A stretch of DNA of 64,000 nt from NCBI RefSeq assembly GCF_007859655.1, contig NZ_CP042304.1, positions 3,846,501-3,910,500 of the forward strand. Reading direction: 5' to 3'. Both the position numbers and the translations under genes were made by a program. Shown in pieces: positions 16,719 through 32,141 of this stretch. The notes beneath the pieces were generated by a model. It was not told the origin of the DNA and did no database searches. It worked only from the letters and a program-made list of their open reading frames with translations. Numbering within the stretch: the stretch's first letter is position 1; each line of letters begins with the position of its first letter. This DNA is from Devosia ginsengisoli. GTDB lineage: Bacteria; Pseudomonadota; Alphaproteobacteria; Rhizobiales; Devosiaceae.

Positions 16719-17660
16719 TTACTGTGTCGCGCGAAGGGAGCGCCGCAGCAATTGCGGTGGCTGGCCTAGGACGCGCAGGAAGGCGCGGCGCATCCGGCCG
16801 GCATCCTTGAAGCCGACGCGGCGGGCGATCTCGTCGAAAGACCCCAGCCCCGCTTCGACGGCATCGCGCGCCGCGATGAGCCGAAGCTGCTCTACCGCCT
16901 TGGCCGGTGTCGTTCCCATTTCCCGAAGAAAGGCGCGCGCGAAATTGCGCGGGCTCATGGCGGCCTGTTCCGCCAGTTGCTCGATGGTCAGCGGCTCGGC
17001 CAGGCTGGCCTTGACCCATGCCACCAGGGCTTCGAAGCGCCCTGACTGGCCACCGAGCTCAAGCAGGCCGGAAAACTGCGACTGCCCGCCGGGCCGACGG
17101 CTATGCACCACAAGCTGCTGGGCGACCAGCCGGGCGATTGCCGGCCCGTGATCGTCCTCGATCAGGGCGAGGGAAAGGTCTATGCCGGCCGAAATCCCTG
17201 CCGATGTCCACATGTCGCCATCCCGCGTGAAAATGCGGTCGGGCTCGAGGCGGACACGCGGATAGCTGCGCCGAAACCGCTCGGTGCTCTCCCAATGCGT
17301 CGTGGCCGAACGGCCATCAAGCCGGCCGGCCTCGGCGAGCAGGAATGCTCCTGAGCATACGCTTGCCAGCCGGCGCGGGCGCACACACTTCAACCAGGCG
17401 ACGATGGTGTGGAAAGCCGCCATGTCCCAGACCAACTGGCCGCCGGAAACCACGATCGTGTCGAGCCCGTCGGCATCCAATGTCGTCGCCGCCAGCTCGA
17501 GGCCGGAGGAACTGGCGATCATTCCGGCCGTTGGAGCCAGGATTTCGAGAGCGTAGCCGTCGGGCACGTAGCGGGAGGCAATCTCGAATGCGGCCGTGGG
17601 GCCGACGACGTCGAGGAACTGGAAGCCGGGATGAATGACGAAACCGATCCGTCGTGTCAT
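16719..17660 (-). CDS. GlxA-family transcriptional regulator (DJ-1/PfpI domain plus AraC-type HTH)
   Basis: About 313 residues from the ATG at 17660; an in-frame extension to 17702 adds 14 residues of unconvincing sequence. The N-terminal DJ-1/PfpI (GATase1-like) domain begins RIGFVIHPGFQFLDVVGP and holds the nucleophile-elbow Cys in ASVCSGAFLLA. The C-terminal AraC domain has two helix-turn-helix units, including EQAAMSPRNFARAF and DEIARRVGFKDAGRMRRAF. It is a cytoplasmic DNA-binding regulator, divergent from a second DJ-1-fold protein (17750-18901), which it may control. The ligand is unknown. Confidence 0.85.
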   Translation of the reverse strand: MTRRIGFVIHPGFQFLDVVGPTAAFEIASRYVPDGYALEILAPTAGMIASSSGLELAATTLDADGLDTIVVSGGQLVWDMAAFHTIVAWLKCVRPRRLASVCSGAFLLAEAGRLDGRSATTHWESTERFRRSYPRVRLEPDRIFTRDGDMWTSAGISAGIDLSLALIEDDHGPAIARLVAQQLVVHSRRPGGQSQFSGLLELGGQSGRFEALVAWVKASLAEPLTIEQLAEQAAMSPRNFARAFLREMGTTPAKAVEQLRLIAARDAVEAGLGSFDEIARRVGFKDAGRMRRAFLRVLGQPPQLLRRSLRATQ

Positions 17661-17749
17661 GGCAGTTTTCGCCCGATTTATGTCATTTCGGACAGCTTCC
17701 ATCTTGCGCTAGGGTCCTGTCAACATCTGCTGCGATACGGGAGCGAAAA

Positions 17750-18901
17750 GTGAGGAAGCGTGTAGTTGCCGCATGGGGCGTCGTCGGGGTCGTCATTCTT
17801 GCCGCGGGTGGCCTCGGCATCTGGCTTGCCATGCTTCCGCCCGGCACGGCGGCATCTGCGCCGCCAGTGCCCGCATCCGAGACGGCAGCAATGCTGGAGG
17901 CGCTCCAGCCCCCCGCCGGCCAGCGGCCGGTCGTGGCCGTTATCGGCCTCAATGATGCGACCGAGACCACCGATTACCTCATGCCGACAGGGATATTGCG
18001 GCGCGCGGACATTGCCGATGTGATCATGCTGGCGACCGAGCCCGGCCCGGTTCAGCTCTATCCTGCACTCAAGGTCGAGCCCGATGCCACCATTGCGGAA
18101 TTCGATGCCAGCCATCCCCAGGGCGCCGACTACGTCATCGTGCCGGCGATGAGCCGGGATGACGATCCCACGGTGTTGGCCTGGCTCCAGCAGCAGGCGG
18201 ACAAGGGCGCCATCGTCGTCGGCGTCTGTGCCGGCGCCAAGGTCGTCGGCGCGGCAGGCCTGCTCGACGGCAAGCGCGCGACGACGCACTGGTTCTATCT
18301 GCGTGACCTGCTGCGACGCAGCCCGACCATAGATTATGTCCCCGACCGGCGCATGGTGATGGACGGGAACGTCGTGACGACGACCGGCATCACCGCATCC
18401 ATGCCCATGATGCTGACACTGGTCGAGGCCATTGGCGGCCGGGAGCGGGCAGAGGCAGTGGCGCGCGATCTCGGCGTGGACTATTGGGGCGCGCAGCATG
18501 CGAGCGGCGCATTCACGTTCACCCGCCCATTCGCCACCACGGTTCTCGCCAATACGATGGCGTTCTGGAACCGTGACGAGTTCGGCATTTCCCTCAAGCC
18601 CGATATGGACGAGGTGTCACTGGCCCTTGTGGCCGATGCCTGGTCGCGGACCTATCGCTCCAGGAGCGTCAGCTTCGCCGCTTCGGACGCTGCCGTCGTG
18701 ACGAAAAATGGCCTCCGCATCCTCCCCGACCGGATCATGCAGGACTGGCCGAAGGCCAATAGCGTCGCCGATTTTTCCGAGCAGCACCCCGTGACCGCGC
18801 TGGACCAGACGCTCCAGGCAATCAATGCGCGCTATGGCGAAAGCACCACCAATGTCGTGGCGATGCAGCTCGAATATCCCAGATCGAACCTCGCGCAGTG
18901 A
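17750..18901 (+). CDS. Membrane-anchored DJ-1/PfpI-family protein
   Basis: About 383 residues from the GTG at 17750, which has GGGAG six to seven bases upstream; longer upstream frames lack support. A single N-terminal hydrophobic helix (VVGVVILAAGGLGIWLAML) suggests a membrane anchor or uncleaved signal. The following DJ-1/PfpI domain contains GVCAGAKVVGAAGLLDGKRATTHW, with Cys at the nucleophile elbow. It matches the ligand-binding half of GlxA/FtrA regulators but has no HTH. The roughly 170-residue C-terminal part is not recognised. The start is 89 bases from that of the divergent GlxA-type regulator, suggesting a sensor/regulator pair. The enzymatic role is unknown. Confidence 0.7.
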   Translation: MRKRVVAAWGVVGVVILAAGGLGIWLAMLPPGTAASAPPVPASETAAMLEALQPPAGQRPVVAVIGLNDATETTDYLMPTGILRRADIADVIMLATEPGPVQLYPALKVEPDATIAEFDASHPQGADYVIVPAMSRDDDPTVLAWLQQQADKGAIVVGVCAGAKVVGAAGLLDGKRATTHWFYLRDLLRRSPTIDYVPDRRMVMDGNVVTTTGITASMPMMLTLVEAIGGRERAEAVARDLGVDYWGAQHASGAFTFTRPFATTVLANTMAFWNRDEFGISLKPDMDEVSLALVADAWSRTYRSRSVSFAASDAAVVTKNGLRILPDRIMQDWPKANSVADFSEQHPVTALDQTLQAINARYGESTTNVVAMQLEYPRSNLAQ

Positions 18902-18911
18902 TAGCAGCGCT

Positions 18912-19562
18912 CTAGGAAGTCAGCCGGCCGCTGCTCTCGTAGCGTATGGTCGGCTCCCGCACGGTGCAGAGTGTTCCGCAAATATGCGGTGGCAGGACAA
19001 GGGACGTCAGTTCGACGTCGCGGGATACGATTTCCCCGATCATGCGGGAAGCCAGCGCCTTTTCGTCGAGCAGCCGGGGCATGGCGAGCCCGTGGTATTT
19101 CACCCAGGCCTCCAGCACGGTCCATGCCCGAAGCTGGGTATCTGTTTCGGCAGGCCAGCCGATGCGTGGCAGGATCGCACTGACTTCGGCAATCAGCAGG
19201 TCCGTTAGCGCGACCGGTCGGCGGCGTTCGATATCGACGCCCACTTCGGCGTTGGAAACGGCGATGATGACGGCCTCGTCCGTGCGGGAAAGGTTGAAGC
19301 CAAGCGCGCCGCCAAGGGCGGGCTTGCCAAGAGGGCCGACAGCGAACTGCTGGTGGCCGTCACCATATTCCGCAAGAACCAGCCGCAGGGCCGCGCGGGA
19401 CGCCAGGAATCGTTCCGCCTGAGCGGTTGAAGCAAATCTGGAGGACCGTTCGATGACGCCGGGCTCCAGAAGGTGCCTGGCCCGCCCGATTTCCAGCAGT
19501 CGAGGGCCCTGCGCAGCCAGGTCGAAAAACCACACGGCAACCCAGGGCTGTCCTGCTGTCAT
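18912..19562 (-). CDS. 4'-phosphopantetheinyl transferase (Sfp type)
   Basis: 216 residues. It transfers phosphopantetheine from CoA to the serine of carrier proteins. The Mg-binding motif VGVDIERR and the helix W-T-V-LEAWVKYHG (family W-x-x-KEAxxK, here Leu for the first Lys but with Glu and Lys kept) are present, plus the N-terminal SRAALRLVLAEYG segment typical of Sfp/Gsp enzymes. Its ATG overlaps the stop of the polyketide synthase gene by four bases (ATGA), so the two are translationally coupled and this enzyme very likely activates that synthase's ACP. It converges on the DJ-1 gene ten bases away. Confidence 0.88.
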   Translation of the reverse strand: MTAGQPWVAVWFFDLAAQGPRLLEIGRARHLLEPGVIERSSRFASTAQAERFLASRAALRLVLAEYGDGHQQFAVGPLGKPALGGALGFNLSRTDEAVIIAVSNAEVGVDIERRRPVALTDLLIAEVSAILPRIGWPAETDTQLRAWTVLEAWVKYHGLAMPRLLDEKALASRMIGEIVSRDVELTSLVLPPHICGTLCTVREPTIRYESSGRLTS

Positions 19563-22500
19563 GTGGTTTCCAGGCTATGCTTGGGCGCCTCGATATCTTC
19601 GGAGGCGGCAAGAGGGGCACTCAAATTCTCGCCCTCGACTATCGATGGCGGTAGCCCCGCGAGGGCAATCAGGGTGCGGCCCAGTGCCGATATATCCGCG
19701 TCGGCGAAGCTCTCGATATCGTAGTAGAAATTGAGCTCCAGCCCGCCATGGGTCGAGAGCGGGCGCAACTGGAGGCGCCCTTCCTGCAGCCCGAATGGCG
19801 CGATGTCGATGGCTTCGATTTCCATCGACATGACGGATACGCGGCCATCTGAAAGCTGGCGCATGGCAGGCCCGAACAGGGAGCGATCGAGCATTTGCCG
19901 GGGTAGCAGCGGCGCGTAGATGAATGCCGGTACGGCGCCCAGAATGCCGGGTTTCGCCGCGAGGTCGAGGAACTGCGCATCTAGCTGCCGCGCAACCTGG
20001 GCGACGTTGCCATCCATGGGCATATCGAGCTGGACCATGCGGCTCAGGAAGGCTACGGCGCGGCGAAGCCGAGGGTCGCCGCGCGCCGGATCATAGGTTC
20101 CGAGTTCCGGCAGGGTACCGTGCCCTGTAGCGACCAGCGCCTGGGCGAACGAAGCGGCGAGCAGGCCATTTTCGGTCGTGCCCAACGTGGCGGCCTGCTG
20201 CCGAAGGGCTTCCGCGCCGCCAAGCCCGAGGCGCAGGGTTCGAACCCGGCTTGGCCCCAGCTGCAGGCGATCTATCCTGACCCCCGCGCGGTGGACCTGG
20301 CTCGAGACGGGGTGGGACGCCAGGCTCAAAATCTGCGACATGCCCGGTGGACGCCGCCCGAGGTCGAGCCCGATATATGCTCTGATCAGATCGTCAAGAA
20401 CGACGCCAAGCGACCAGCCATCGGCCACCCCTTCGAACAGCCTGATCAACACCACGTCGCCGCCTGCGCCCAGCCGCAGAAGATGAACCTCGATCAATGG
20501 TGGCCGGCTCACGTCATACGGGCGCTCGGCAATGCTGCGCATGGCTTGCGCAAGTTCGACGTCACCGGCTGCGTCCAGGTCGCGAACTGTCAATGGCGCG
20601 ACCCTGTCGAGCACCAGAGCCCGCCATTGCCCGTCATGGCGGGCGAACCGGGCGCGCAGAAACTCGTGGCGATCGACAACCTTGCTGACGGCCCGCTGCA
20701 GCCGTTGAACATCGACGCCGGGACGGACGCGGATTGCCTGGCACAGCATGGAGGCGCGTCGCAGTGTTTCGGTCGCTGCGGGGTCCGACACTTCGTCGAG
20801 CAGGTTCGTGAGGGCGGCGCTAACCGGGTATCCCGGGAGCGGCTGGGTAGCCGGCAAATCGCGCGCGGTTTTCTGGTCGATCGAACCATTGGGGAGGGCG
20901 GCAATTGCGGGCGACGGTGTGACCGGGTTTGCGGTCTGACCGGGGGCGTTGGCGAGCGCTGTCACGAGCCTTTGCAGATTTGCCTCATCGATTGCCTGTT
21001 CGTCATAGGCAAGCGTTACCCGCGTGCCGCCTTCGAAGGTCACAATGTGGGCTGCCAGCGCGTTCCACGCCGGAATAGCTGGGTCGTGCTCGTCCCGGAA
21101 CGAGAAGCCGAGCTGACGTGCCTGGACATTGGCCAGGTCCAGTTCTTCGGCCAGCAAGAGCTCCATCGAGCATGTCTCCAGAACGGGCTCGCTGAGAGAC
21201 AGCTGATGGTTGACTATCGCCAGGGCGAGCGACCTGTCCGGCGCAAGGGCCACGCGGACAGGAAAGCTGCTAGGCTCAGCGTCGACAAAACGTTCGATCA
21301 TGAGATCGCGGCGCCCGGTGACTGTCTCGACAGCCTGCGCGAAGGCGAGCAGCCAGTCGGCTTCAGACAGCCTGGCGGATGTTTGCAGCACGTCGCGATG
21401 AACTATCCGCCCGATGTTCAGGCCGGCGGTTGAGGCCAGCACCGGCCTGGTGCCGCCCGGCAGCTTGACGGCGGAGGCCCAGGGCTCCAGCAGTGCACGC
21501 GTACGGGCTTCTGCCGCGATCCTGTCGATGTCGGGTGGTTCGTGGCGGATGATCAGGCCGGGGTCGTCGCTCACCAGTGCGTTGAGCACACTGTCGGCCT
21601 CGATGTCGATGGCCAGGTGCAGGCGCAGGCCGAGTTCGACGACCACGTCATTCTCCTCGGACGCGGCGATGCGAAGCAGTTCACCGCTCGTAATATCGAG
21701 TGGGCGCGCCAGGGCATCCGCGACGGATTGCGTCACGACAATATCAGGTGGCGTCCCCCGCATAAGGAGGGTGCGGCTCGCGGGGTCACAGTGCAGCGCA
21801 AGATGTGGCGCAATGCTGCAGAGGCGGGAGAGCGCTTCCTCGATATCGGCGAGGGCGCGCGGGCTGTCGGGGCGGCGCCGAGCCACCTGTTCGAGGGCCG
21901 CCCGGCCGGCGTCTGAGGTCATCGGCGCCAGGGCGCGCTGGATGGCCCAGCGCTGGCGGTCCGAAAACACCGCCTGCTGCTCGGCTGCGGGCAGAGCTCC
22001 CGGCCCGCCCGGCATTTCACGCTCGGATCGGGCCTGCTCTTCGAGGGCGCTGGCGATGACGGATGACAGCTTTTCCAGCGTCGGCGCCTGCAGGAAAGCC
22101 CCGACTGTCATGGTCAGGCCCAGCCTGGTCTCGATCCTGTTCTTGAGCTCGATCGAGGAGAGTGAATCCAGCCCCAGTTCGGCCAGTGGCCGATTGACCG
22201 GAACCAGTTTAGGTTCGACGTCGAGGACGCAGCTGACTTCTTCGACGAGGAACTCTTGGAGGAGGGCCGGCCACGCCGCAGAAGGGGATGCCGCGAGCAT
22301 CTGGCGCAGTTTATGGTCGCCTTTGCGCGTGCCCGGCATCAGTCCGGCAAGGCGTGGGGTTACCCCCTGGCTGCCGAATGCACCGCGGACCCGACTCCAG
22401 TCGACGGCAGCGATGCTGCGCGAGGTCGCGCTGCTGACGGCAAGCCCTTCCAGCAAATCAAGGGTGTCGGCACTCGCCATCGGCAATATGCCCAGGCTTT

Positions 22501-24976
22501 CGAGATAACTGCTCATTGCCGCATTGTCGGCCACGAAACCGGCCTCTCCCAGGGCGCCAAGGCTGACGGTCTGGGCCGGCATGCCGTGTCCCGCGCGGTA
22601 GCTTGCGAAGCCATCAAGGAAGCTGTTGGCGGCAACATAATTGGCTTGCCCCAGCGAGCCGAGCAACTGGGCCACCGATGACAGGGACAGGAAGAAATCC
22701 AGCGCGGCCCCGGACTTTGCCAGGGCCCGGTGCAGCGCCCAGGCGCCGGCGACCTTGGGCTGCAGCACCGCGCGAATGGATGCCGCGTCGAGCTGGCCCA
22801 GCAGGCCATCCTTGAACACGGCGGCGCCATGTACGATGCCGGCTAGTGGCTGGTCGGAATGGGTGCGATCCGCAATGAATGCGTCAACCGCCGCCTCGTC
22901 GGTCAGATCGAGCGCTACGGCTTCGACCGTTGAACCCGACGCGTGCAGTTCTTCGGCGAGCCCCTCGTGCCGGGCAGGCAGCGTACCGGAACGCGAAGCG
23001 AGGATGAGGTGGCCTGCGCCGTGCCGGCTCAGCCAGCGGGCAATTTCCACGCCGAAGCCGCCCGTGCCGCCGGTTATCAGATAGCTGCGGTTCTGGCGGG
23101 CCACCAGTGCACGGTTGGATGATGCGCGTACCGTACGGGCGCCGGATTCAAGGCCGATCACCACCTTGCCGATATGCCTGCCCCTGGCCATCAGATCGAA
23201 AGCATCGGCAGCGCGATCGACGGGAAAATAGGTGATTGGCGTCGGGATATAGACCTTGTCCGCAAAGCGCTGGAGCACTTCGGCCAGAATGCTCGCCAGC
23301 AAGTCGGGACGGTCCGTGCCCATTGCCGCCAGATCGATGACGTGGACCGAAATATTGCGGCGCAGTCCGTGCAGGCCCAGGGGCGTATCTGCGTAGACGT
23401 CGCGCTTGCCGATCTCCAGAAACCGTCCGAACGGCGCCAGGACGTCCAGCCCCTTGGCGATGAAATGCGCTGGCAGGGCGTTCAGGATGACATCGACGCC
23501 CTTGCCGCCGGTCGCGGTCAGGATGTCGTCGGCAAAGCCGAGCGAGCGGGAATTGAAGACATGGGCAAGGCCCAGGCTTCGGAGATAGCTGCGTTTCTCC
23601 TCGGACCCGGCAGTGGCGAAAACCTCGGCGCCAAGGGACTTGGCCACCTGAATAGCGGCAAGGCCAACGCCGCCGCTGCCCAGATGGATGAGAACGCGTT
23701 CGCCCTTCTGTACCCGGCCGGCATGTGCCAGCGCATAGTGGGCCGTTGCGAAGGCCGAGGGGATGGACGCCGCCTCTTCGAGGGACAGGGCCGATGGAAT
23801 GGGCACGAGCGTCCGAGCGGGAACCGCGACGAGGCCCCGAAGACAGGCCCGCGCCATGCCCATGACCCGGGCGCCGACAGCCAGTTCCGGCACATTGCTG
23901 CCGAGCGCCCGAACGGTGCCGGAGAATTCAAGGCCGAGATTGAGCCAGGCCGGGTCGGGTTCCGCGCCGGCCGGCAACAGCCCGGTCACCGCCATGACAT
24001 CCCGGAAATTGAGGCCCACCGCGGCCGTCTCGACCAGTACGTCGTCTGGCGCCAGGCTTGGTCTCGGGCAGGCCTCGAGGAAAAGACTGGCGGTCGATCC
24101 CGGGGCTTTCATCGTCAGCTGGAAATTGTCCGTTGCCGATGTCAGGTCGATATCGACGAGGCCGCCGGGAAGGTCCGAGCGACTATCGGCGACGAGGCGC
24201 GGGACATAGCTGGCGCCGCCCCGTAACACGAACTCGGACTCTTCGCTGTCGGCTGCCGCCAATATTCGAACCACATCTTCGATCTCGTCGCGTGGACTAT
24301 CGATCTGGCGGATGCGTATATCCGGATTTTCGGAGGCGATGGTTCGGGCCAGGCCGACCACTGCGGAGGCCGCCAGGCCGGCCAGCGACATTGGCTTGTC
24401 CTGCGGTAGCAGGCGGGCCCCATGGGTCACGATGATGACGTCGCGCACGCGCCGTGGAGTGTCGAGCGCCTGAAGGGCTTGCGCTACCGCGATCAGGTGC
24501 AGGACATGTTGCTCGCTGCGGGAGACCAGATCGTCCTCTCCGATACCATCGCCCGAGACATGGAAAATCACGGAATCGACCTGCGCCGCTGCGTCAGCCG
24601 TCAGGGTGCGCGTTCGCGACAGCAGGTCTTCGTCCGCCGCCGCGGTCGGCAGGTCCAATGCGATGACGGAAGCGCCAGCCTGTTCCAGCCCCGCGGTCAG
24701 GCTTTCGGTGGCACTGCTATCGCTGGTCAGGATGAGCCAGTTCCCGCTTAACCCTGCCTGCTCCCCGGGTTGGAAAGGGATGAAGGTTTCGGCGTAATAG
24801 GCGGGTTTTCCAGCTTCGGCATCGGTCTTCGTGGCCTGTTGCCCCACTTGTCGCATTTCCAGCCCGTCGATGGAGAGGAGGCAGCGGCCATCCGCATCGG
24901 CAAGGCTGTAATCGGCGGTGACCGCTTTTGCCTCCGAGCTTTCCAGCCTCATCTGGACAGAGATGTGCCGGGTCAG
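19559..24976 (-). CDS. Type I polyketide synthase, C-terminal part: DH end, ER, KR, ACP and two condensation-like domains (downstream of a frameshift)
   Basis: Continuation of the synthase that starts at 28377. Numbered on the repaired protein (about 2,939 residues), this part has: the end of the dehydratase; a structural region (about 1,180-1,420); ER about 1,430-1,745 with HLGSGGVGLAAIQVAK; KR from about 1,764 with ITGGTGGFG, the catalytic Ser in SLSSVAQ, Tyr in GQANYVAAN and a B-type-like Asp in VFKDG; and ACP with Ser2072 in LGLDSLSS. Two condensation-like domains follow (about 2,125-2,520 and 2,540-2,920) with altered motifs LHLAIDI and FEGVADG in place of HHxxxDG. There is no thioesterase or adenylation domain. 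The frame stays open upstream to 25366 but is out of register there, so no real start exists; ATGs a few codons after 24976 lie inside the DH. Confidence 0.85.
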   Translation of the reverse strand: MTRHISVQMRLESSEAKAVTADYSLADADGRCLLSIDGLEMRQVGQQATKTDAEAGKPAYYAETFIPFQPGEQAGLSGNWLILTSDSSATESLTAGLEQAGASVIALDLPTAAADEDLLSRTRTLTADAAAQVDSVIFHVSGDGIGEDDLVSRSEQHVLHLIAVAQALQALDTPRRVRDVIIVTHGARLLPQDKPMSLAGLAASAVVGLARTIASENPDIRIRQIDSPRDEIEDVVRILAAADSEESEFVLRGGASYVPRLVADSRSDLPGGLVDIDLTSATDNFQLTMKAPGSTASLFLEACPRPSLAPDDVLVETAAVGLNFRDVMAVTGLLPAGAEPDPAWLNLGLEFSGTVRALGSNVPELAVGARVMGMARACLRGLVAVPARTLVPIPSALSLEEAASIPSAFATAHYALAHAGRVQKGERVLIHLGSGGVGLAAIQVAKSLGAEVFATAGSEEKRSYLRSLGLAHVFNSRSLGFADDILTATGGKGVDVILNALPAHFIAKGLDVLAPFGRFLEIGKRDVYADTPLGLHGLRRNISVHVIDLAAMGTDRPDLLASILAEVLQRFADKVYIPTPITYFPVDRAADAFDLMARGRHIGKVVIGLESGARTVRASSNRALVARQNRSYLITGGTGGFGVEIARWLSRHGAGHLILASRSGTLPARHEGLAEELHASGSTVEAVALDLTDEAAVDAFIADRTHSDQPLAGIVHGAAVFKDGLLGQLDAASIRAVLQPKVAGAWALHRALAKSGAALDFFLSLSSVAQLLGSLGQANYVAANSFLDGFASYRAGHGMPAQTVSLGALGEAGFVADNAAMSSYLESLGILPMASADTLDLLEGLAVSSATSRSIAAVDWSRVRGAFGSQGVTPRLAGLMPGTRKGDHKLRQMLAASPSAAWPALLQEFLVEEVSCVLDVEPKLVPVNRPLAELGLDSLSSIELKNRIETRLGLTMTVGAFLQAPTLEKLSSVIASALEEQARSEREMPGGPGALPAAEQQAVFSDRQRWAIQRALAPMTSDAGRAALEQVARRRPDSPRALADIEEALSRLCSIAPHLALHCDPASRTLLMRGTPPDIVVTQSVADALARPLDITSGELLRIAASEENDVVVELGLRLHLAIDIEADSVLNALVSDDPGLIIRHEPPDIDRIAAEARTRALLEPWASAVKLPGGTRPVLASTAGLNIGRIVHRDVLQTSARLSEADWLLAFAQAVETVTGRRDLMIERFVDAEPSSFPVRVALAPDRSLALAIVNHQLSLSEPVLETCSMELLLAEELDLANVQARQLGFSFRDEHDPAIPAWNALAAHIVTFEGGTRVTLAYDEQAIDEANLQRLVTALANAPGQTANPVTPSPAIAALPNGSIDQKTARDLPATQPLPGYPVSAALTNLLDEVSDPAATETLRRASMLCQAIRVRPGVDVQRLQRAVSKVVDRHEFLRARFARHDGQWRALVLDRVAPLTVRDLDAAGDVELAQAMRSIAERPYDVSRPPLIEVHLLRLGAGGDVVLIRLFEGVADGWSLGVVLDDLIRAYIGLDLGRRPPGMSQILSLASHPVSSQVHRAGVRIDRLQLGPSRVRTLRLGLGGAEALRQQAATLGTTENGLLAASFAQALVATGHGTLPELGTYDPARGDPRLRRAVAFLSRMVQLDMPMDGNVAQVARQLDAQFLDLAAKPGILGAVPAFIYAPLLPRQMLDRSLFGPAMRQLSDGRVSVMSMEIEAIDIAPFGLQEGRLQLRPLSTHGGLELNFYYDIESFADADISALGRTLIALAGLPPSIVEGENLSAPLAASEDIEAPKHSLETT

Positions 24977-27900
24977 GGGGCGGCAAAGCGCAGCCGGCGC
25001 AGCGCCGTCGGCAGGTACAGTGTCTGGGCCGCAGCGCTCGGATTTTCTGGCTCGCCGGGTGCGGTCCGGCTGGCAGCAAGCATCGCTATGGTGAGCTGCA
25101 GGGCACCATCGAGCAGGCATGGGTGGGCCAGGCTGCCCTCGAGCGAGACCTGGTCGGGTGCCACGATCGCGCCGCTTGCCGTCTCTGCCGTCACACTGGC
25201 ACTCGCCACCGTCCTGAAAGCGGGGCCATATCCAAAGCCGGCCGATGCGGTTTGAGCATAGAAGTCGTCGGCGCTCAGCGGCGAACCCGCTTGTGCATCG
25301 AGCGGGAACGGAAGGCCGGGCATCACATCGGTCGGGCGGAGCCGCGCGCTGGCCCGCAATATCCATTCTGGCGCGCCATCGCGGGTGCGGGTTCTGACGT
25401 CGATGAGATGGCGGGCAGCGTCGAACCGCGTGGAGAACAGCACCCGCTCATCGGCGCCGATGAAGAGGGCGGCCGAAATCTCGAAATTCTCGATCTCGAT
25501 CGGCACGTCGCCGAAGATGTTGCGTCCGGCGCAGAGCATGATCTCGATGAAGCCGGCTGCCGGGAACACCACGTCGCCGCCAACCGCATGATCCCGGAGA
25601 AACGGGAAGGCGCCCAGGCTGACCTCATTGCTCCAGACCGGATCAGGCCCCGGGGAGCGTTTGCCGAGCAGTGGAAATTCGGCGCTGTCGTGCAGAAGAT
25701 CGCGCGCTTCTTCGGAGTGCCGCCAATAGGGCGATAGCTGCCAGGGATAGGTCGGAAGCCCTTTCGCCTGCGCGTTGCCGCCCGTTGCCGCCTGCCAGTC
25801 GATCGTCCGGCCGCTGCAATGGAGCTGCGCAGTAGCGACCGCCACGGCGCGGAAGTCATCTTCGTTTCGCACCAGTGAGTTGACGACCGACACGGGAACG
25901 GCGCGCTCGGCGGCATTGGTCGCGTTAAGGCCGCTCAGCACCCGGTGCGGCGACAGTTCAAGGAAGGCATTGGCGCCGAGATCAAGCGCCATCAGCACGG
26001 CATCCCGGTAGCGGACCGGCTGACGCAGGTTTTGCCACCAGTAATCGGCATCGAGCCGGCTTTCAGGCTGCCCGGTGACGGTGGAGATAAAACCCACCTG
26101 CGGCGCCTGCCACTCAATGTCGCCGATTTCGCCCCGGAACCAGTCTTCCAGCGGCGCCAATTGGCGGGAGTGCCAAGCGGTATCGCTCTGTACCGGCCGA
26201 ACCTGTGCCGATGGATGCGCCTCGGCCAGCTGCGCGGACAATTGCGCCATTTCGGCGGGCGGCCCCGCCAGGGTAACCATGGAGGCGGCATTAAGGGCGG
26301 CGATGTCTATCTGGCTGTCGGGTCCGAGCAGAGCCTGGACTTCCGCCGGGGCCAGGCCGACCGCCAGCATGGCGCCGTCGGTTCCCAGCTTCTCGCGGAT
26401 CTGGCAGCGCACATGGATCATGCGCGTCGCGGTCTCGAGACTGATTGCTCCGGCAAGATAGGCCGCCGCCAGTTCTCCAAAGCTGTGCCCCAGGACGAAG
26501 TCGGGCCGCACATCACAGGATTGCCAGAGCGCGCCGAGCCCGATCTGAACGCCGAAAATCGCCGGCATCGCATAGCGGGACTGATCGAGGCGATACTGCG
26601 CCTCGTCGCGCAGCAGTTCAGCGTGGACAGACCAGCCGGACAACGCCTCGAAACCCTGGTCGAATTCCATGAAGGCGCGAGAGAAAGTCGGGTCTTCGAG
26701 CAGCAGTCGCCGCCCCATGCCCCACCATTGCCCGCCCTGACCAGCGAAAGTAAATGCCAGCCTGCTGCGCGGCGGCGGTGAACCGGACACGATTGCCGGC
26801 AGCGCGCCGCGGACGGGTGGCGGCACGTCCCGCTCGGCCATCTCGGACAGGCTGTTTGCCAGTTCCTGCCTAGAGGCGGCAATAACGGCAGCCCGATGCG
26901 GCAGGCCTTCGCGCATGGTCCCGAGTGAGGCGGCAATGTCCGCCAGGCTGCGCTCCGATAGCCTGCCCTCGACAACTTCCGCGTGCAGGCGGCCGGCCAC
27001 CTGGCGCAAGGCTTCTGCGCTGGCGGCCGATAGCGGCACGGCGACAGTTTTTTCGATCGGCTGCGGGCTTTCGGAAGCCGGGCGTACCGAATTAGCGCTT
27101 TGCAGCAGCACGCCGGCGTTGGTCCCGCCGAAGCCAAAGGAATTGACCGCTATGAAGACCGGCGAACCACTATTGCTTCCCAGCGCTGCCGGCGCTTGCG
27201 GCACCGCCATGTTATGCGCCTCGAACGCAATGGCCGGATTGGGCTCCTCGGAATTGATGCTGGCCGGCACAAGACGATTTTCGAGAACAAGGACGGCCTT
27301 GATCAGGCTGGCAATGCCGGCGGCGGATTCCAGGTGTCCGATATTGGGCTTGACCGAACCAAACAGCAGCGGCGCCTGTCGGCCCGCGCCGCCGAAGACA
27401 TGCCCAATGGCTGCGGCTTCGATGGGATCGCCAATCGGGGTTCCGGTGCCGTGCGCTTCGACATAATCCACGTCATGGGGGGCGATATCCGCAGTATTGC
27501 AGAGCGCGGCCATCATGGCCTGCTGGGCATGCAGGTCGGGCGCGGTCAGCGTCGGTGTGCGGCCGTCCTGGTTGACGGCGGTGGCGCGTATCAGCGCCCG
27601 CGTCCGTCGTCCCTGCGCCAGGGCGTCGGTCTCGCGCATCAGCACTATCGCGCCGATGCCTTCGCCACGGACATAGCCATTGGCCCGGCGATCGAAGGCG
27701 GACAGCGTCCCCGTGGGCGAAAGCATACCGGCCTTTGAAAACGCGACGAAGGTTGCGGGGTCGATCAACAGGTTGACGCCCGCGACGATGGCGATGTCGA
27801 TCCGGCCGCTGTTCAAGGCCGTGACGGCCTGGTCGAGGGCGACCAGCGAGGAGGAGCATGCCGTGTCGATCGACAGGCTGGGGCCGCTGAGATTGAAGCG

Positions 27901-28377
27901 GTGCGAAACCCTGTTGGCCACGATCGACAGGGCGGAGCCGGTTCCGGCATAGATATCGCTATGGGTGCGCTGCAGGCGCTGCAGGGATGCATAGTCGGAA
28001 GAGGAGGCGCCCACGTAAACGCCGGTGCGGACCGTGCCGAGAAGGTTCCGCGTCAGGCCCGCATCCTCCATCGCCTCATAGGCGACCATCAGCAGCAGGC
28101 GCTGCTGCGGATCCATGGCCTGGGCCTCGCGCGGAGAAATCTCGAACATTGCAGGGTCAAAGCCGGCGACGTCATCGATGAAGCCGCCCCAGCGCGTATA
28201 GCTCTTGCCGGGTGCTTCGGTATTGGCATCGACATGGGCCGCGATCGAGAAGCGATCCGCCGGGATTTCGCCGATAGCGCTCCGCCCGTCGAGCAACTGG
28301 CGCCAGAAACTGTCCGGTGTGTTGGCGCCGTCCGGAAATCGGCAGGCCATGCCCATCAGGGCTATGGACGTCCCCAT
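24973..28377 (-). CDS. Type I polyketide synthase, N-terminal part: KS, AT, DH (ends at a frameshift)
   Basis: 1,134 residues from ATG 28377, which opens MGTSIALMGMACRFPDG and has GAGGGGAAGGA just upstream. KS (1 to about 430): Cys174 in DTACSSS, His in EAHGTGT and in NIGHLES, all intact. AT (about 540-830): GQGGQWWGMG, Ser632 in GHSFGE, and TAWHS at the position of the HAFH/YASH specificity motif, closer to malonyl-type. DH (from about 905): His930 in LRDHAVGGDVVFP and Asp1090 in HPCLLDGALQ. The frame ends at TGA 24973-24975 in the middle of the DH; the conserved continuation resumes at once in the other frame (24976 leftward). One extra C in the C5 run (24976-24980, plus-strand G5) would join both parts. 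Confidence 0.88.
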   Translation of the reverse strand: MGTSIALMGMACRFPDGANTPDSFWRQLLDGRSAIGEIPADRFSIAAHVDANTEAPGKSYTRWGGFIDDVAGFDPAMFEISPREAQAMDPQQRLLLMVAYEAMEDAGLTRNLLGTVRTGVYVGASSSDYASLQRLQRTHSDIYAGTGSALSIVANRVSHRFNLSGPSLSIDTACSSSLVALDQAVTALNSGRIDIAIVAGVNLLIDPATFVAFSKAGMLSPTGTLSAFDRRANGYVRGEGIGAIVLMRETDALAQGRRTRALIRATAVNQDGRTPTLTAPDLHAQQAMMAALCNTADIAPHDVDYVEAHGTGTPIGDPIEAAAIGHVFGGAGRQAPLLFGSVKPNIGHLESAAGIASLIKAVLVLENRLVPASINSEEPNPAIAFEAHNMAVPQAPAALGSNSGSPVFIAVNSFGFGGTNAGVLLQSANSVRPASESPQPIEKTVAVPLSAASAEALRQVAGRLHAEVVEGRLSERSLADIAASLGTMREGLPHRAAVIAASRQELANSLSEMAERDVPPPVRGALPAIVSGSPPPRSRLAFTFAGQGGQWWGMGRRLLLEDPTFSRAFMEFDQGFEALSGWSVHAELLRDEAQYRLDQSRYAMPAIFGVQIGLGALWQSCDVRPDFVLGHSFGELAAAYLAGAISLETATRMIHVRCQIREKLGTDGAMLAVGLAPAEVQALLGPDSQIDIAALNAASMVTLAGPPAEMAQLSAQLAEAHPSAQVRPVQSDTAWHSRQLAPLEDWFRGEIGDIEWQAPQVGFISTVTGQPESRLDADYWWQNLRQPVRYRDAVLMALDLGANAFLELSPHRVLSGLNATNAAERAVPVSVVNSLVRNEDDFRAVAVATAQLHCSGRTIDWQAATGGNAQAKGLPTYPWQLSPYWRHSEEARDLLHDSAEFPLLGKRSPGPDPVWSNEVSLGAFPFLRDHAVGGDVVFPAAGFIEIMLCAGRNIFGDVPIEIENFEISAALFIGADERVLFSTRFDAARHLIDVRTRTRDGAPEWILRASARLRPTDVMPGLPFPLDAQAGSPLSADDFYAQTASAGFGYGPAFRTVASASVTAETASGAIVAPDQVSLEGSLAHPCLLDGALQLTIAMLAASRTAPGEPENPSAAAQTLYLPTALRRLRFAAP

Positions 28378-28647
28378 GGATTCCTTCCCCTCACGGGCGG
28401 GGTCGAAGCTCAACTCTGGCACTCCATGCGGGCACTCTGGGGGCCGTGGGCAATTCAGGCGAAACGATGACCATATCCCGGCCGAACATTGGTGACTTTT
28501 GGGCAACAGTCCGCGTCGCCTGTTTTCTAAAGCGCTCGCGACGCGGTTACAACGGCCCGTTGACATCTTGTCAGCAATCGCAAAGCAGCACTAGTTTGCC
28601 CGGGTGAAGGGGCCGAGGACAACGTCCTCAACCTGCTGGAGGGCGAT
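28378..28647. promoter_or_regulatory. Divergent intergenic region between the PKS and the outer-membrane barrel gene
   Basis: 270 bases without a gene. A perfect inverted repeat TGACA-TCT-TGTCA lies at 28561-28573. Its first half is part of TTGACA (28560-28565), which could be a rightward -35; no good -10 is evident. GGAGGG at 28638-28643 is the ribosome-binding site of the barrel gene. I see no small ORF with credible features. Confidence 0.4.
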
Positions 28648-29382
28648 GTGAATAAAAACTTTGTTGCAGCGGTAGGCGTATTGTCGGTTTTGGCGTGCGG
28701 CGCCGCGTCGGCACAGGACGCTGTGCCGTCCGGGTCCGTCGTCTACGACGCGGCCGCATTCGACGCGCTGCCGTGGTATGTTTCGGGCAAGGTCGGCATC
28801 GCGCTGCCGGGCACCATCGACACGACCTCGGTCACCGGTTTTGGTGTCGGCCCATCGGGTAAATCGAGCTTCGATGCCGGCTTTGCCGGGGCCGTTGCGG
28901 TCGGCAAGCATATTAGCCCCCAGGTGCGGGCCGAGCTGGAACTGGGCATCGCGATCAATGCCGGTCGCTCTTTCGAAGGTACCTATCCCTGGGGAGCCCC
29001 CTCGAGCGGCTCTCTCGATGGCAATGTAACGACCACCACCGCTATGGCGCTGGGCTATTACGATTTCACGCAATTCGGCAACTTCGTTCCATACCTTTCG
29101 GCAGGTCTGGGTGCCGCTCATGTCAGTTCCAACCTGACCTATACCGACACCGTGGGCTTTTCGAGCGGTACCATTACCGGCAGCAGCATGGTGCCGGCAG
29201 CGCGCATCGGCGCTGGTTTCCAGTACAAGATCGCCGATTCGATGGATCTGACTGTCGACTACACGGCGCTTTTCGGCGGCCAGGCCGCATTCACCCACAA
29301 TGATGCCTTCGGTGGCTCTACCACCGTCAACTCCAGCGTTATGGCCCATGCACTGGCCGTGGGCGTAAAGGGCAGCTTCTAG
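28648..29382 (+). CDS. Outer-membrane beta-barrel protein (Omp25/OmpW-like)
   Basis: 244 residues, GTG start at 28648 supported by GGAGGG four bases upstream. A Sec signal peptide (first 22 residues, ending ASA before QDA) is followed by alternating hydrophobic/polar strands, for example PYLSAGLGAAHVSS and ARIGAGFQYKIADSMDLTVDYTA broken by glycine-rich turns. The chain ends in aromatic Phe after VGVKGSF, the outer-membrane assembly signal. The size fits an eight-stranded barrel. Its function is unknown. Its divergent position beside the polyketide synthase makes a role in export or surface display of the product possible but unproven. Confidence 0.8.
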   Translation: MNKNFVAAVGVLSVLACGAASAQDAVPSGSVVYDAAAFDALPWYVSGKVGIALPGTIDTTSVTGFGVGPSGKSSFDAGFAGAVAVGKHISPQVRAELELGIAINAGRSFEGTYPWGAPSSGSLDGNVTTTTAMALGYYDFTQFGNFVPYLSAGLGAAHVSSNLTYTDTVGFSSGTITGSSMVPAARIGAGFQYKIADSMDLTVDYTALFGGQAAFTHNDAFGGSTTVNSSVMAHALAVGVKGSF

Positions 29383-29476: not shown

Positions 29477-30607
29477 ATGCAGGTAACGGTTCACGATACG
29501 ATCGACGACATCGGGGCCGTAGAATGGGACCGGGTATTCGGCCCGGAACGGCTGTTCCAGAGCCATGCCTGGCTGCGCTCGTCGGAAGGTGGCGCCCTCG
29601 GCGATTGCACGCCGAAATATATTGTCATCCGCGACGATGCGGCGGACATTGTCGTGGCAGTTGCCGCCTATATCATCCCCACATCGCTGGTCATGTTTTC
29701 GGCAGGTCCCATCAAGTGGGTGGCCGAACGCATCCAGCGGCTGGTCCCCTGGTTCCTGCGGCCGCGCATTCTCGAATGCGGCAGTCCACTTGGTCCGGGC
29801 AATGGCATTGGTATTCGGCCGGGTGCCGCGATTGCGGCGCTGGCGCCTGTCATCTGCGAGGCGCTGGAACGCCTGGCAGCCAGCGAACGCGTGCATCTCA
29901 TCGTGCTGCGTGACTTTCTCGAGCCGGAGCTTGAGGCGAGCGCCGCGTTCGAACTGGCGGGCTATGCCAGGGGAGAAAGCCTCCCCACTATGTCACTCGA
30001 TATCAAATGGGCGTCCTATGCCGACTATCTAGCGTCAATGACGAGCCGGCATCGCCAGAAGGTGCGGCGCGGACTGGCCTTGGCCGAAAAATCGGGGCTG
30101 CATGCACGCTGGACTGGCCGTATCGGCGACCGGGGCGAGCGATTGGCGCGGCAACGCGAGAATGTCCGTCAATTCGCCACCGAATATAGCCGCGAACAAT
30201 TGGCGCCCAGCTTCTTTGCCCAACTCGACCATGCGTTGGGTCAGCGGGTGCGTGTGCTCGACGTGCTGAAGGGCGAGACCAGTGTGGGGCATGCGCTGGT
30301 GGTCGATGACGGCAGCATCCTGCGCTGGCTATCCTTTGGCCGCGAGACGGGCGGTGTCCGGGACGGCGCCTATTTTCTTGTGCTCGCCAGCATTGTCGAA
30401 TTGGCGATCAGTGAAGGCAAATCCGTGCTCGACATGGGAATGACGACGCACGGCCCCAAGACCGACTTCGGCGCGATAATGCATCTGCAATGGATGCTGC
30501 TGCGGTTCCGCGGCCCGCTCGGCAAGTTGTTGCCGCTGGCCCTGAACTACCTGAACCCGGCACGGGGGACGGCCACGCGCCACGCGTTCAGGGATGACGG
30601 GCCGTGA
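29477..30607 (+). CDS. FemAB/BioF2-like GNAT-fold acyltransferase
   Basis: 376 residues, cytoplasmic, no signal peptide. The layout is that of FemAB-type proteins (two GNAT-like halves): the first half includes ECGSPLGPGNG, the second the recognisable LASMTSRHRQKVRRGLALAEK and a C-terminal DMGMTTHGPKTDFGAIM. Such enzymes transfer aminoacyl or acyl groups to an amine, for example in peptidoglycan bridges, exopolysaccharide decoration or lipo-amino-acid synthesis. Proximity to the polyketide synthase/PPTase pair suggests it might conjugate an acyl chain to an amino compound, which is inference. The 3' end overlaps the convergent GNAT gene by 20 bases. Confidence 0.6.
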   Translation: MQVTVHDTIDDIGAVEWDRVFGPERLFQSHAWLRSSEGGALGDCTPKYIVIRDDAADIVVAVAAYIIPTSLVMFSAGPIKWVAERIQRLVPWFLRPRILECGSPLGPGNGIGIRPGAAIAALAPVICEALERLAASERVHLIVLRDFLEPELEASAAFELAGYARGESLPTMSLDIKWASYADYLASMTSRHRQKVRRGLALAEKSGLHARWTGRIGDRGERLARQRENVRQFATEYSREQLAPSFFAQLDHALGQRVRVLDVLKGETSVGHALVVDDGSILRWLSFGRETGGVRDGAYFLVLASIVELAISEGKSVLDMGMTTHGPKTDFGAIMHLQWMLLRFRGPLGKLLPLALNYLNPARGTATRHAFRDDGP

Positions 30608-31229
30608 TGGCGTGCTGGTGCGCGGGCCGGGTCATGGCGACAATCACTGTGTCGGGCGGTAGCGTGAATTCGCCAACGGCCGCAAAGCCGAAACGTTCAT
30701 AAAGCCTGGCGCTGGAAGGGCCCGATGCCTCGAGGTGAACAATTCCCCCCGCTTGGTCGATCATGTCGAGGCGGTCTCTAAGCAGCGCAGTGGCGATACC
30801 CTGTCCGCGTGCACTGGCATCCGTCGCTAGGCGCACCAGATGCCAATGCGGTCGAGCGGGCTGGAAGCGCTTGAAGTCGGAACGGTAGGTGAGCCAGTTG
30901 AGCAGGCCCCGCAAGCCAACCGCCGCCAGCATGGCAGGCCCATATCGCACGGTTTGCAACAGCATCCCTCGGGCGCTCGGCGCTTCCCACACGGCAGCTC
31001 CCACGGCTTGGCCGTCGGTGTCTCGGTAGAGATCGATCACCCCACCCGTGTCCAGGGTCAGGCAAGCCTCGGCTTGGAGATATGAGCGCAGCCGCTTCTG
31101 CCGCTCTTGGCCATCCACGAAGGCCCGCAGCTCGGGATCATCATCGAAAGCCCGCGCCAGCAAACCGGCGATTTCCGGAATATCTGCCGTGGAGGCAGGG
31201 CCCGTACCTCCAGCCATAAATCCCGCCAT
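30588..31229 (-). CDS. GNAT-family N-acetyltransferase
   Basis: About 213 residues from ATG 31229; ATG 31217 is equally possible, and longer upstream frames look non-coding. GNAT motif A is clear: VRLATDASARGQGIATALL with the acetyl-CoA pyrophosphate loop R-G-Q-G-I-A. It is followed by HLEASGPSSARLYERFGFAAVGEF, the usual motif B ending in a GF turn. Acceptor unknown; small-molecule amines or toxins are typical. Its gene converges on the FemAB-like gene with a 20-base overlap. Confidence 0.75.
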   Translation of the reverse strand: MAGFMAGGTGPASTADIPEIAGLLARAFDDDPELRAFVDGQERQKRLRSYLQAEACLTLDTGGVIDLYRDTDGQAVGAAVWEAPSARGMLLQTVRYGPAMLAAVGLRGLLNWLTYRSDFKRFQPARPHWHLVRLATDASARGQGIATALLRDRLDMIDQAGGIVHLEASGPSSARLYERFGFAAVGEFTLPPDTVIVAMTRPAHQHAITARHP

Positions 31230-31357
31230 TCCCGGACTGCCCTCGCCAGCGTCAAATGAACTGGATGGCCTGAAGAAATCAAGCGAACAAACGACTCCTT
31301 CCAGGCTCCGGTGCTGGCGTCGAGATCGCGTGAAGGTACAATTCGCCGTAGTGGCGG

Positions 31358-32141
31358 CTAGCGGTTCTGTGGTCCGCAGAGCATGACGTGTATGCCGCTT
31401 TGGGTCAGGCTTTCCTTGTTCTCCTGATCCAGCGGCAGCAGGTCGGTGGCTAAACAGGTGAATTTTGAGAATGGCGCCACGCGCACCGCGGCCGTTCCCA
31501 GCCATTTGCTGGCATCCGCCACCAGGTATCGATTGCGCGAATTAAGCAGGATCGCATTGGTGATCTGGGCTTCTTCATAGCTGAAATCGAGTACGCCGCT
31601 CGTCGGATGCAGTCCGCCGGCACCGACCACGGCATGGGTGGCATGGAACTTCTCGAAATAGCCGATCGTGTCGGAGCCCACGAGGTCGCGGTCATTCGTC
31701 CGCCAGACGCCGCCGGTAAGGTGGAGTTCGATGCCCTCGACATCGCCAAGGATCAGGGCAACCTCGACATTATTGGTGACCACGGTGAGCCCCGCATGCC
31801 CGCGGAGCGCCTCGGCGACGAAACGCACCGTCGTCCCTATCCCCATGAACACCGTCGAACCATTGGGAATGTCCCGCGCGACATGGGCGCCGATGAGGCG
31901 TTTGGCGCGGCTGTGCAGGCTCGCCCGGGCGTTGATCGGCGTGTTCTGCGCCATGACCGGCAGGTCGACGCCGCCATGCAGCCGCCGTGCCAGGCCCAAG
32001 GCACAGAGTGCGTTGATATCCCGGCGGATGCTCTGCGGGGTCAGGCCGTAATCCTGCGCCAGCAGGTCGATCTGCTGCGCGCCGCGCGCCGATGCGCGCG
32101 AGGATGTCGTTCTGCCGATCGGAAAGCCGAGGATCGCTCAT
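31358..32141 (-). pseudogene. DeoR-family transcriptional regulator (GlpR-like), broken by one frameshift
   Basis: Starting at ATG 32141 the sequence reads MSDPRLSDRQNDILARIGA. Around 32084 the conserved protein shifts frame and continues GAQQIDLLAQDYGLTPQSIRRDI, the DeoR winged helix-turn-helix, then ALGLARRLHGGV and the full effector domain (VFMGIGTTVRFVAEAL, VVTNNVEVALIL, VVGAGGLHPTSGVLDF). Removing one base, or adding two, in the GC-alternating stretch near 32084 restores a normal protein of about 260 residues. The gene follows ugpBAEC on the same strand, so it likely senses a glycerol- or sugar-phosphate and controls that importer. Either a sequencing indel or a true loss of the regulator. 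Confidence 0.8.

Follow-up and report, generated by a model that had tools for sequence, protein, structure and literature searches.

How does a bacterial polyketide synthase (PKS) with a full set of reducing domains and no thioesterase match unload its chain, and what do two condensation-like units at its C-terminal end contribute? The question is raised by a gene of Devosia ginsengisoli (contig NZ_CP042304.1), located at 28377..19559 of the window, the whole stretch of 64,000 nucleotides analysed here. The locus would encode a type I PKS with reducing domains that probably works iteratively. It would belong to a rare family of the Alphaproteobacteria marked by an ACP-C1-C2 unloading end, C1 and C2 being the two tail units. 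In C2, the second histidine of the HHxxxDG condensation motif is a glutamate, invariant in its clade. The best explanation, held tentatively at a little under an even chance, is a reducing PKS with a scaffold C1 and a C2 that would be a His-to-Glu condensation variant unloading the chain. The features of the gene, in window coordinates, are:

24973..28377, minus: PKS first frame with KS, AT and the N-terminal DH part; probable start ATG, open frame reaching 28566
27250..28368, minus: KS (DTACSS, EAHGTGT, NIGHL), Pfam PF00109/PF02801
25810..26754, minus: AT (GHSFG; TAWHS in the specificity region), Pfam PF00698
24830..25674, minus: DH, interrupted by the frame break; both frames match Pfam PF21089/PF14765
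24976..24980, minus: C5 run where the frame breaks, followed immediately by a stop codon (24973-24975)
19559..24976, minus: PKS second frame; within the open frame 19559..25366, coding starts at about residue 131
23156..24115, minus: ER, Pfam ADH_N/ADH_zinc_N and an NCBIfam match
22550..23086, minus: KR, Pfam PF08659
22022..22258, minus: ACP (LGLDSL), Pfam PF00550
20924..21991, minus: C1, degenerate condensation-like unit, LHLAIDI at the motif position (21602-21622)
19646..20866, minus: C2, Glu-type condensation domain, FEGVADGWS (20411-20437) with Glu1645 (20432-20434)

The two terminal units

C2 is a clear condensation fold with a Pfam match. A sequence-only reading of this DNA, whose residue numbers are 1004 higher than those of the second frame, had given its motif as FEGVADG. 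This string is present, starting at residue 1644 of the second frame, with both histidines lost and the DG kept. The relatives are divided here into a Glu clade and a sister group. The Glu clade comprises the window, G237, G024, G005, G477, P0004-P0006, P0127-P0131 and P0247-P0251, or 18 rows and 17 distinct C2 sequences (P0127 and G477 share one C2 sequence; G237/P0004 and G024/P0247 are near-copies). The sister group has ten members (G601, G040, G127, G085, L019, L020, L025, L027, L034 and L044). The second-His position is Glu in 17/17 distinct Glu-clade sequences, and the D, G, W and S of the motif are invariant, while the first-His position drifts between F (11), C (4), T (1) and L (1). 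The median pairwise identity of these domains is 33%, with 29 of 395 ungapped columns invariant. In the sister group, C2 keeps HHxxxD, followed by G, in 10/10. The counts were taken from a 30-row tail alignment, excluding G060 and L021, which have no aligned C2. An earlier alignment of 15 tails omitted P0004 (the near-copy of G237), G060, L021, L023 and L039; L023 was used in trees only, and the tail of L039 is in no alignment. The C2 tree places the Glu clade on one side of a branch (98/94), and its six members with the KS region at hand form one clade in a tree of KS, AT and the N-terminal DH part (100/100).

A wider set of 662 condensation matches, 14 of which were left out because of motif gaps, gave 648 distinct sequences. 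HH is found in 605 of these and Glu at the second place in 18, including 15 of the Glu clade. Outside this clade, Glu occurs in 3/633 matches (P0047, P0075 and L054), which is no general frequency, as the matches were found by similarity to the tail with a model built from both groups. P0047 (near residue 2581, AEPFLDGWS) and P0075 (near residue 1824, SEPFLDGWS) are nonribosomal peptide synthetases (NRPSs) with the Glu-type domain between PCP and A. From the domain order, these two domains sit where a working condensation domain would be expected.

The role of the second histidine is still debated according to a passage of PMC11546977, which also states that its mutation does not always abolish activity and describes a working HQxxxDM domain. 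The active HQxxxDM domain and the tolerated mutation make a Glu-type domain plausible, not proven. It is possible, though short of probable, that Glu and not His is catalytic in a subfamily of condensation domains. This subfamily would have a single origin, in domains that terminate reducing PKSs of Alphaproteobacteria, and a few NRPSs would show it too. A limited literature search met neither this PKS family nor a condensation motif of the Glu type.

C1 is more degenerate. The LHLAIDI string of the sequence-only reading starts at residue 1249 of the second frame; no PF00668 stretch was detected in C1 by Pfam, and no canonical HHxxxDG is present. C1 is nevertheless probably a condensation fold: both tail units resemble NRPS condensation domains, C2 very clearly, as had been proposed, and the unrelated fold that would have overturned the proposal was not obtained. 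WS/DGAT and Pap families were not among the Pfam matches at E 0.001, an absence that is no exclusion at that cut-off. The C1 motif position reads HR in 7/10, QR in 2/10 and HF in 1/10 of the sister group, and no conserved motif is found in the Glu clade. Eight sequences (P0006, G024, G005 and P0247-P0251) are gapped there and have tails more than 100 residues shorter. The window LHLAIDI can be aligned in two registers one residue apart, and P0005 has Gln/Ala at the window His/Asp in either. C1 was rejected as an active transferase on conservation. It looks like a scaffold, in which catalysis is unlikely. The comparison of relatives thus reverses the roles first assigned, in which C1 was possibly catalytic and C2 perhaps only binding or gating.

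Domain order, distribution and frame break

Pfam bears out the order KS-AT-DH-(structural)-ER-KR-ACP-C-C and gives no match to a thioesterase. All six domains from KS to ACP lie in one chain in intact relatives such as G237 and are spread over two frames in the window. The active-site patterns of KS, AT, DH, KR and ACP are all present; ER was called from Pfam and, by eye, a GSGGVG loop, as the ER pattern used matched none of the proteins tested. The AT substrate could not be read from TAWHS. A single module suggests iterative use.

The ACP-C1-C2 family is rare and scattered. Tail matches were obtained in 5/136 genomes of the family and 2/385 of the class at 1e-40, the latter including the own genome, and in 10/397 of the order at 1e-20, including single-C or partial ones (G060, G070, G229, G388). 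PKS frames were inspected at 18/80 loci, and the protein searches, which scored only candidates sharing most words, list 120 of 301 proteins in one case and 120 of 271 in the other. Since intact relatives have the tail as well, it is not a product of chance. G060 has a single tail unit, itself degenerate (HASASDE), and L023 is a bacterial relative with one canonical C (AHHAVLDGWS). The PKS of the intact relative Devosia subaequoris DSM 23447 (locus L018) has the same length and C2 motif as that of G005. At L039:3767-14665, a PKS frame of 3633 residues has some 1500 residues after the ACP.

A single protein over 19559..28377 had been assumed, across a break that went unnoticed. The gene is encoded by the minus strand; in this interval the plus strand is dense with stops. 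Its 8819 nt are not divisible by three, so the PKS is not one open frame in this assembly. It consists of two minus-strand frames, 24973..28566 (KS, AT and the N-terminal DH part) and 19559..25366 (C-terminal DH part, structural region, ER, KR, ACP and tail). In an alignment with the intact G237 relative (2950 aa), the first covers residues 1-1141 at 77% identity and the second residues 1144-2950 at 68%. As the two frames cover nearly all of the G237 PKS, little besides the reading frame is lost. The break lies inside the DH, at the C5 run, which is absent from G237, G024 and G005, where the frame is open; a programmed frameshift is unlikely for this reason.

The two frames and the stop within the DH could mean that the PKS is a pseudogene in this strain. 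This is unlikely, though far from negligible. There is a single break in about 8.8 kb, at a run that those relatives lack. Nonsynonymous and synonymous divergence (dN, dS) against G237 is 0.135 and 1.28 before the break and 0.160 and 1.25 after it, giving a dN/dS of about 0.11 and 0.13, a pairwise value that is blind to very recent loss; the corresponding dN and dS are 0.369 and 1.34 for C1 and 0.224 and 1.28 for C2. An FtsX permease gene of the same genome, outside the window (L129:492-3009), falls into two frames with the break at a C7 run, unlike its long homologues in G477, G005, G237 and G024, which are open. Because this second gene of the assembly breaks at a C run, which fits a sequence error, the break in the PKS is probably a homopolymer error, a recent mutation being the alternative. 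The Glu motif is not decay of this strain, since it is common to intact relatives.

Neighbouring genes

The PKS is flanked by the following genes, in window coordinates:

18912..19562, minus: phosphopantetheinyl transferase (PPTase), overlapping the PKS stop; matches below curated cut-offs
28648..29382, plus: outer-membrane beta-barrel protein, divergent to the PKS
29477..30607, plus: FemAB-like protein; its G237 counterpart, 76% identical, lies beside the PKS there
30588..31505, minus: GNAT acetyltransferase-like protein, adjoining the FemAB-like gene in G237 too

A PPTase or PPTase-like match adjoins the PKS in the window, G237, G024, G005, L020, G477 and G601. The barrel gene scores above 200 bits in exactly 3/37 genomes of the genus, which are those with the PKS tail (G000, the own genome, G005 and G024); the other 34 are matchless. 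It adjoins the PKS in G237 too and is not found at the G477 and G601 loci. The FemAB-like and GNAT genes are common to the window and G237 clusters only, and strong FemAB-like matches are otherwise absent among 61 genomes, the rest scoring at most 28.6 bits. An open reading frame at 28591-29349 on the minus strand was rejected as an operon partner: it has no Pfam match, and the plus-strand barrel gene occupies its site. On the other side of the PKS, the PPTase gene adjoins a divergent pair (16719-18901), which encodes a DJ-1/PfpI protein and an AraC-type regulator that includes a DJ-1/PfpI domain.

No exporter was found among the scanned genes beside the window PKS, ABC importers apart. Membrane-fusion and MacB/DevC-like permease genes follow the PKS in 7/10 sister loci (L016, L019, L025, L027, L044, L110 and L111). 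As for the others, L034 ends 80 bases past the PKS, a different FtsX/MacB permease is present at L020, and no match was obtained at L128 (G601). The exporter-flanked HH-type relatives belong to Xanthobacter and other Rhizobiales, with a gene order as if the product were exported. FtsX permeases are also found close to the PKS of G477 and, in G060, upstream of the single-C PKS. In G000, the best homologue of the one in G477 is encoded away from the PKS, by a gene that is broken too. A sulfotransferase-family gene (L127:4902-6077) close to the Glu-type PKS of G477 is possibly a tailoring enzyme. Because barrel, permease and membrane-fusion genes lie near these PKSs, an exported or envelope lipid is hinted at.

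Unloading of the chain

In the mechanism that is tentatively favoured, the neighbouring PPTase would activate the PKS, which would build a saturated acyl chain on its ACP. C1 would be a dead condensation fold, retained as a spacer or docking platform. In C2, the second histidine was probably replaced once; the glutamate, located on the same loop with the DGWS kept, would assume a base or positioning role, and C2 would move the chain from the ACP onto a small, soluble amine or alcohol. The chain may end up in a lipid that is exported or placed in the envelope. Several points weigh against this picture. L023 and G601 are long branches in the C2 tree, one of them with odd composition, and the predicted tail model is of moderate quality (pLDDT 69.3, pTM 0.48). 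In addition, the first DH pattern was not found in G024 and G005, nor the second in G040, G127, G085, L019, L020, L025 and G060. The degree of reduction may therefore differ within the family, and full reduction may not hold for all of it.

The loss of both histidines could also be read as the death of C2 in the Glu clade. C2 would then only hold the acyl-ACP or position it, in the way that X domains serve P450 enzymes. The chain would be released by hydrolysis or in trans; candidates for this in the window clade are the FemAB-like and GNAT proteins, whose genes are shared by the window and G237. X domains of glycopeptide NRPSs offer a precedent: in a passage of PMC11546977 they are described as condensation folds that serve as a recruitment platform and not as a catalyst. 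The HR and QR pairs of sister-group C1 may be set beside them; in contrast to the X domain systems, no P450 match was found among the scanned neighbouring genes. A glutamate fixed in every Glu-clade sequence while the first-His position drifts is not expected of a dead site. The FemAB-like protein is also weakened as a general release enzyme of the clade, since no match is found at the G024, G005, G477 and G601 loci. A dead C2 is a real possibility, yet a doubtful one. Alternatively, C2 could alter the chain on the ACP instead of transferring it, for example by elimination, isomerisation, cyclisation or epimerisation. The superfamily has epimerisation, cyclisation and dehydrating members, and E domains are among the Foldseek matches of the tail, with the dehydrating domain of AmbE and Cy domains also matched. 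A fully reduced chain, however, gives little substrate for such chemistry, and no specific sequence sign of it is seen, which makes this reaction quite improbable.

Unloading by a terminal condensation domain, as favoured here, has parallels in other systems. The fungal highly reducing PKSs LovB and MokA end in ACP-condensation with a single terminal C, in comparison to two tail units in the window PKS. They also differ in that the second His of the window C2 is Glu and in that Pfam gives no methyltransferase match between the window DH and ER; LovB has a methyltransferase at that place. In the enacyloxin PKS, a condensation domain (6cgo) releases the polyketide, and it matches the window tail with a Foldseek E of 3.4e-18. 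That system is modular, and its condensation domain is not known to belong to a tandem tail on a reducing PKS. Among the mycobacterial Pks2 and Mas-type synthases, Pks2 is the best NCBIfam match of the second frame (484 bits), far under a curated cut-off of 2400 bits that is set for the whole protein, the window frames having been scanned separately. HetI of the cyanobacterial heterocyst glycolipid system (HetI, DevBCA) is the best match of the window PPTase, and sister loci recall DevBCA in encoding a membrane-fusion protein together with a permease that weakly matches DevC. All these HetI/DevBCA matches are far under the curated cut-offs, and the surroundings of the window PKS yielded no exporter.

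The family would constitute a bacterial counterpart of the fungal synthases with an ACP-C end, one in which a dead C unit separates the carrier from the terminal domain. A natural clade with a fixed Glu beside a His-keeping sister clade of the same architecture provides a ready-made test of the role of the second histidine. If Glu is indeed catalytic, acyl transfer in the condensation superfamily would need no histidine.
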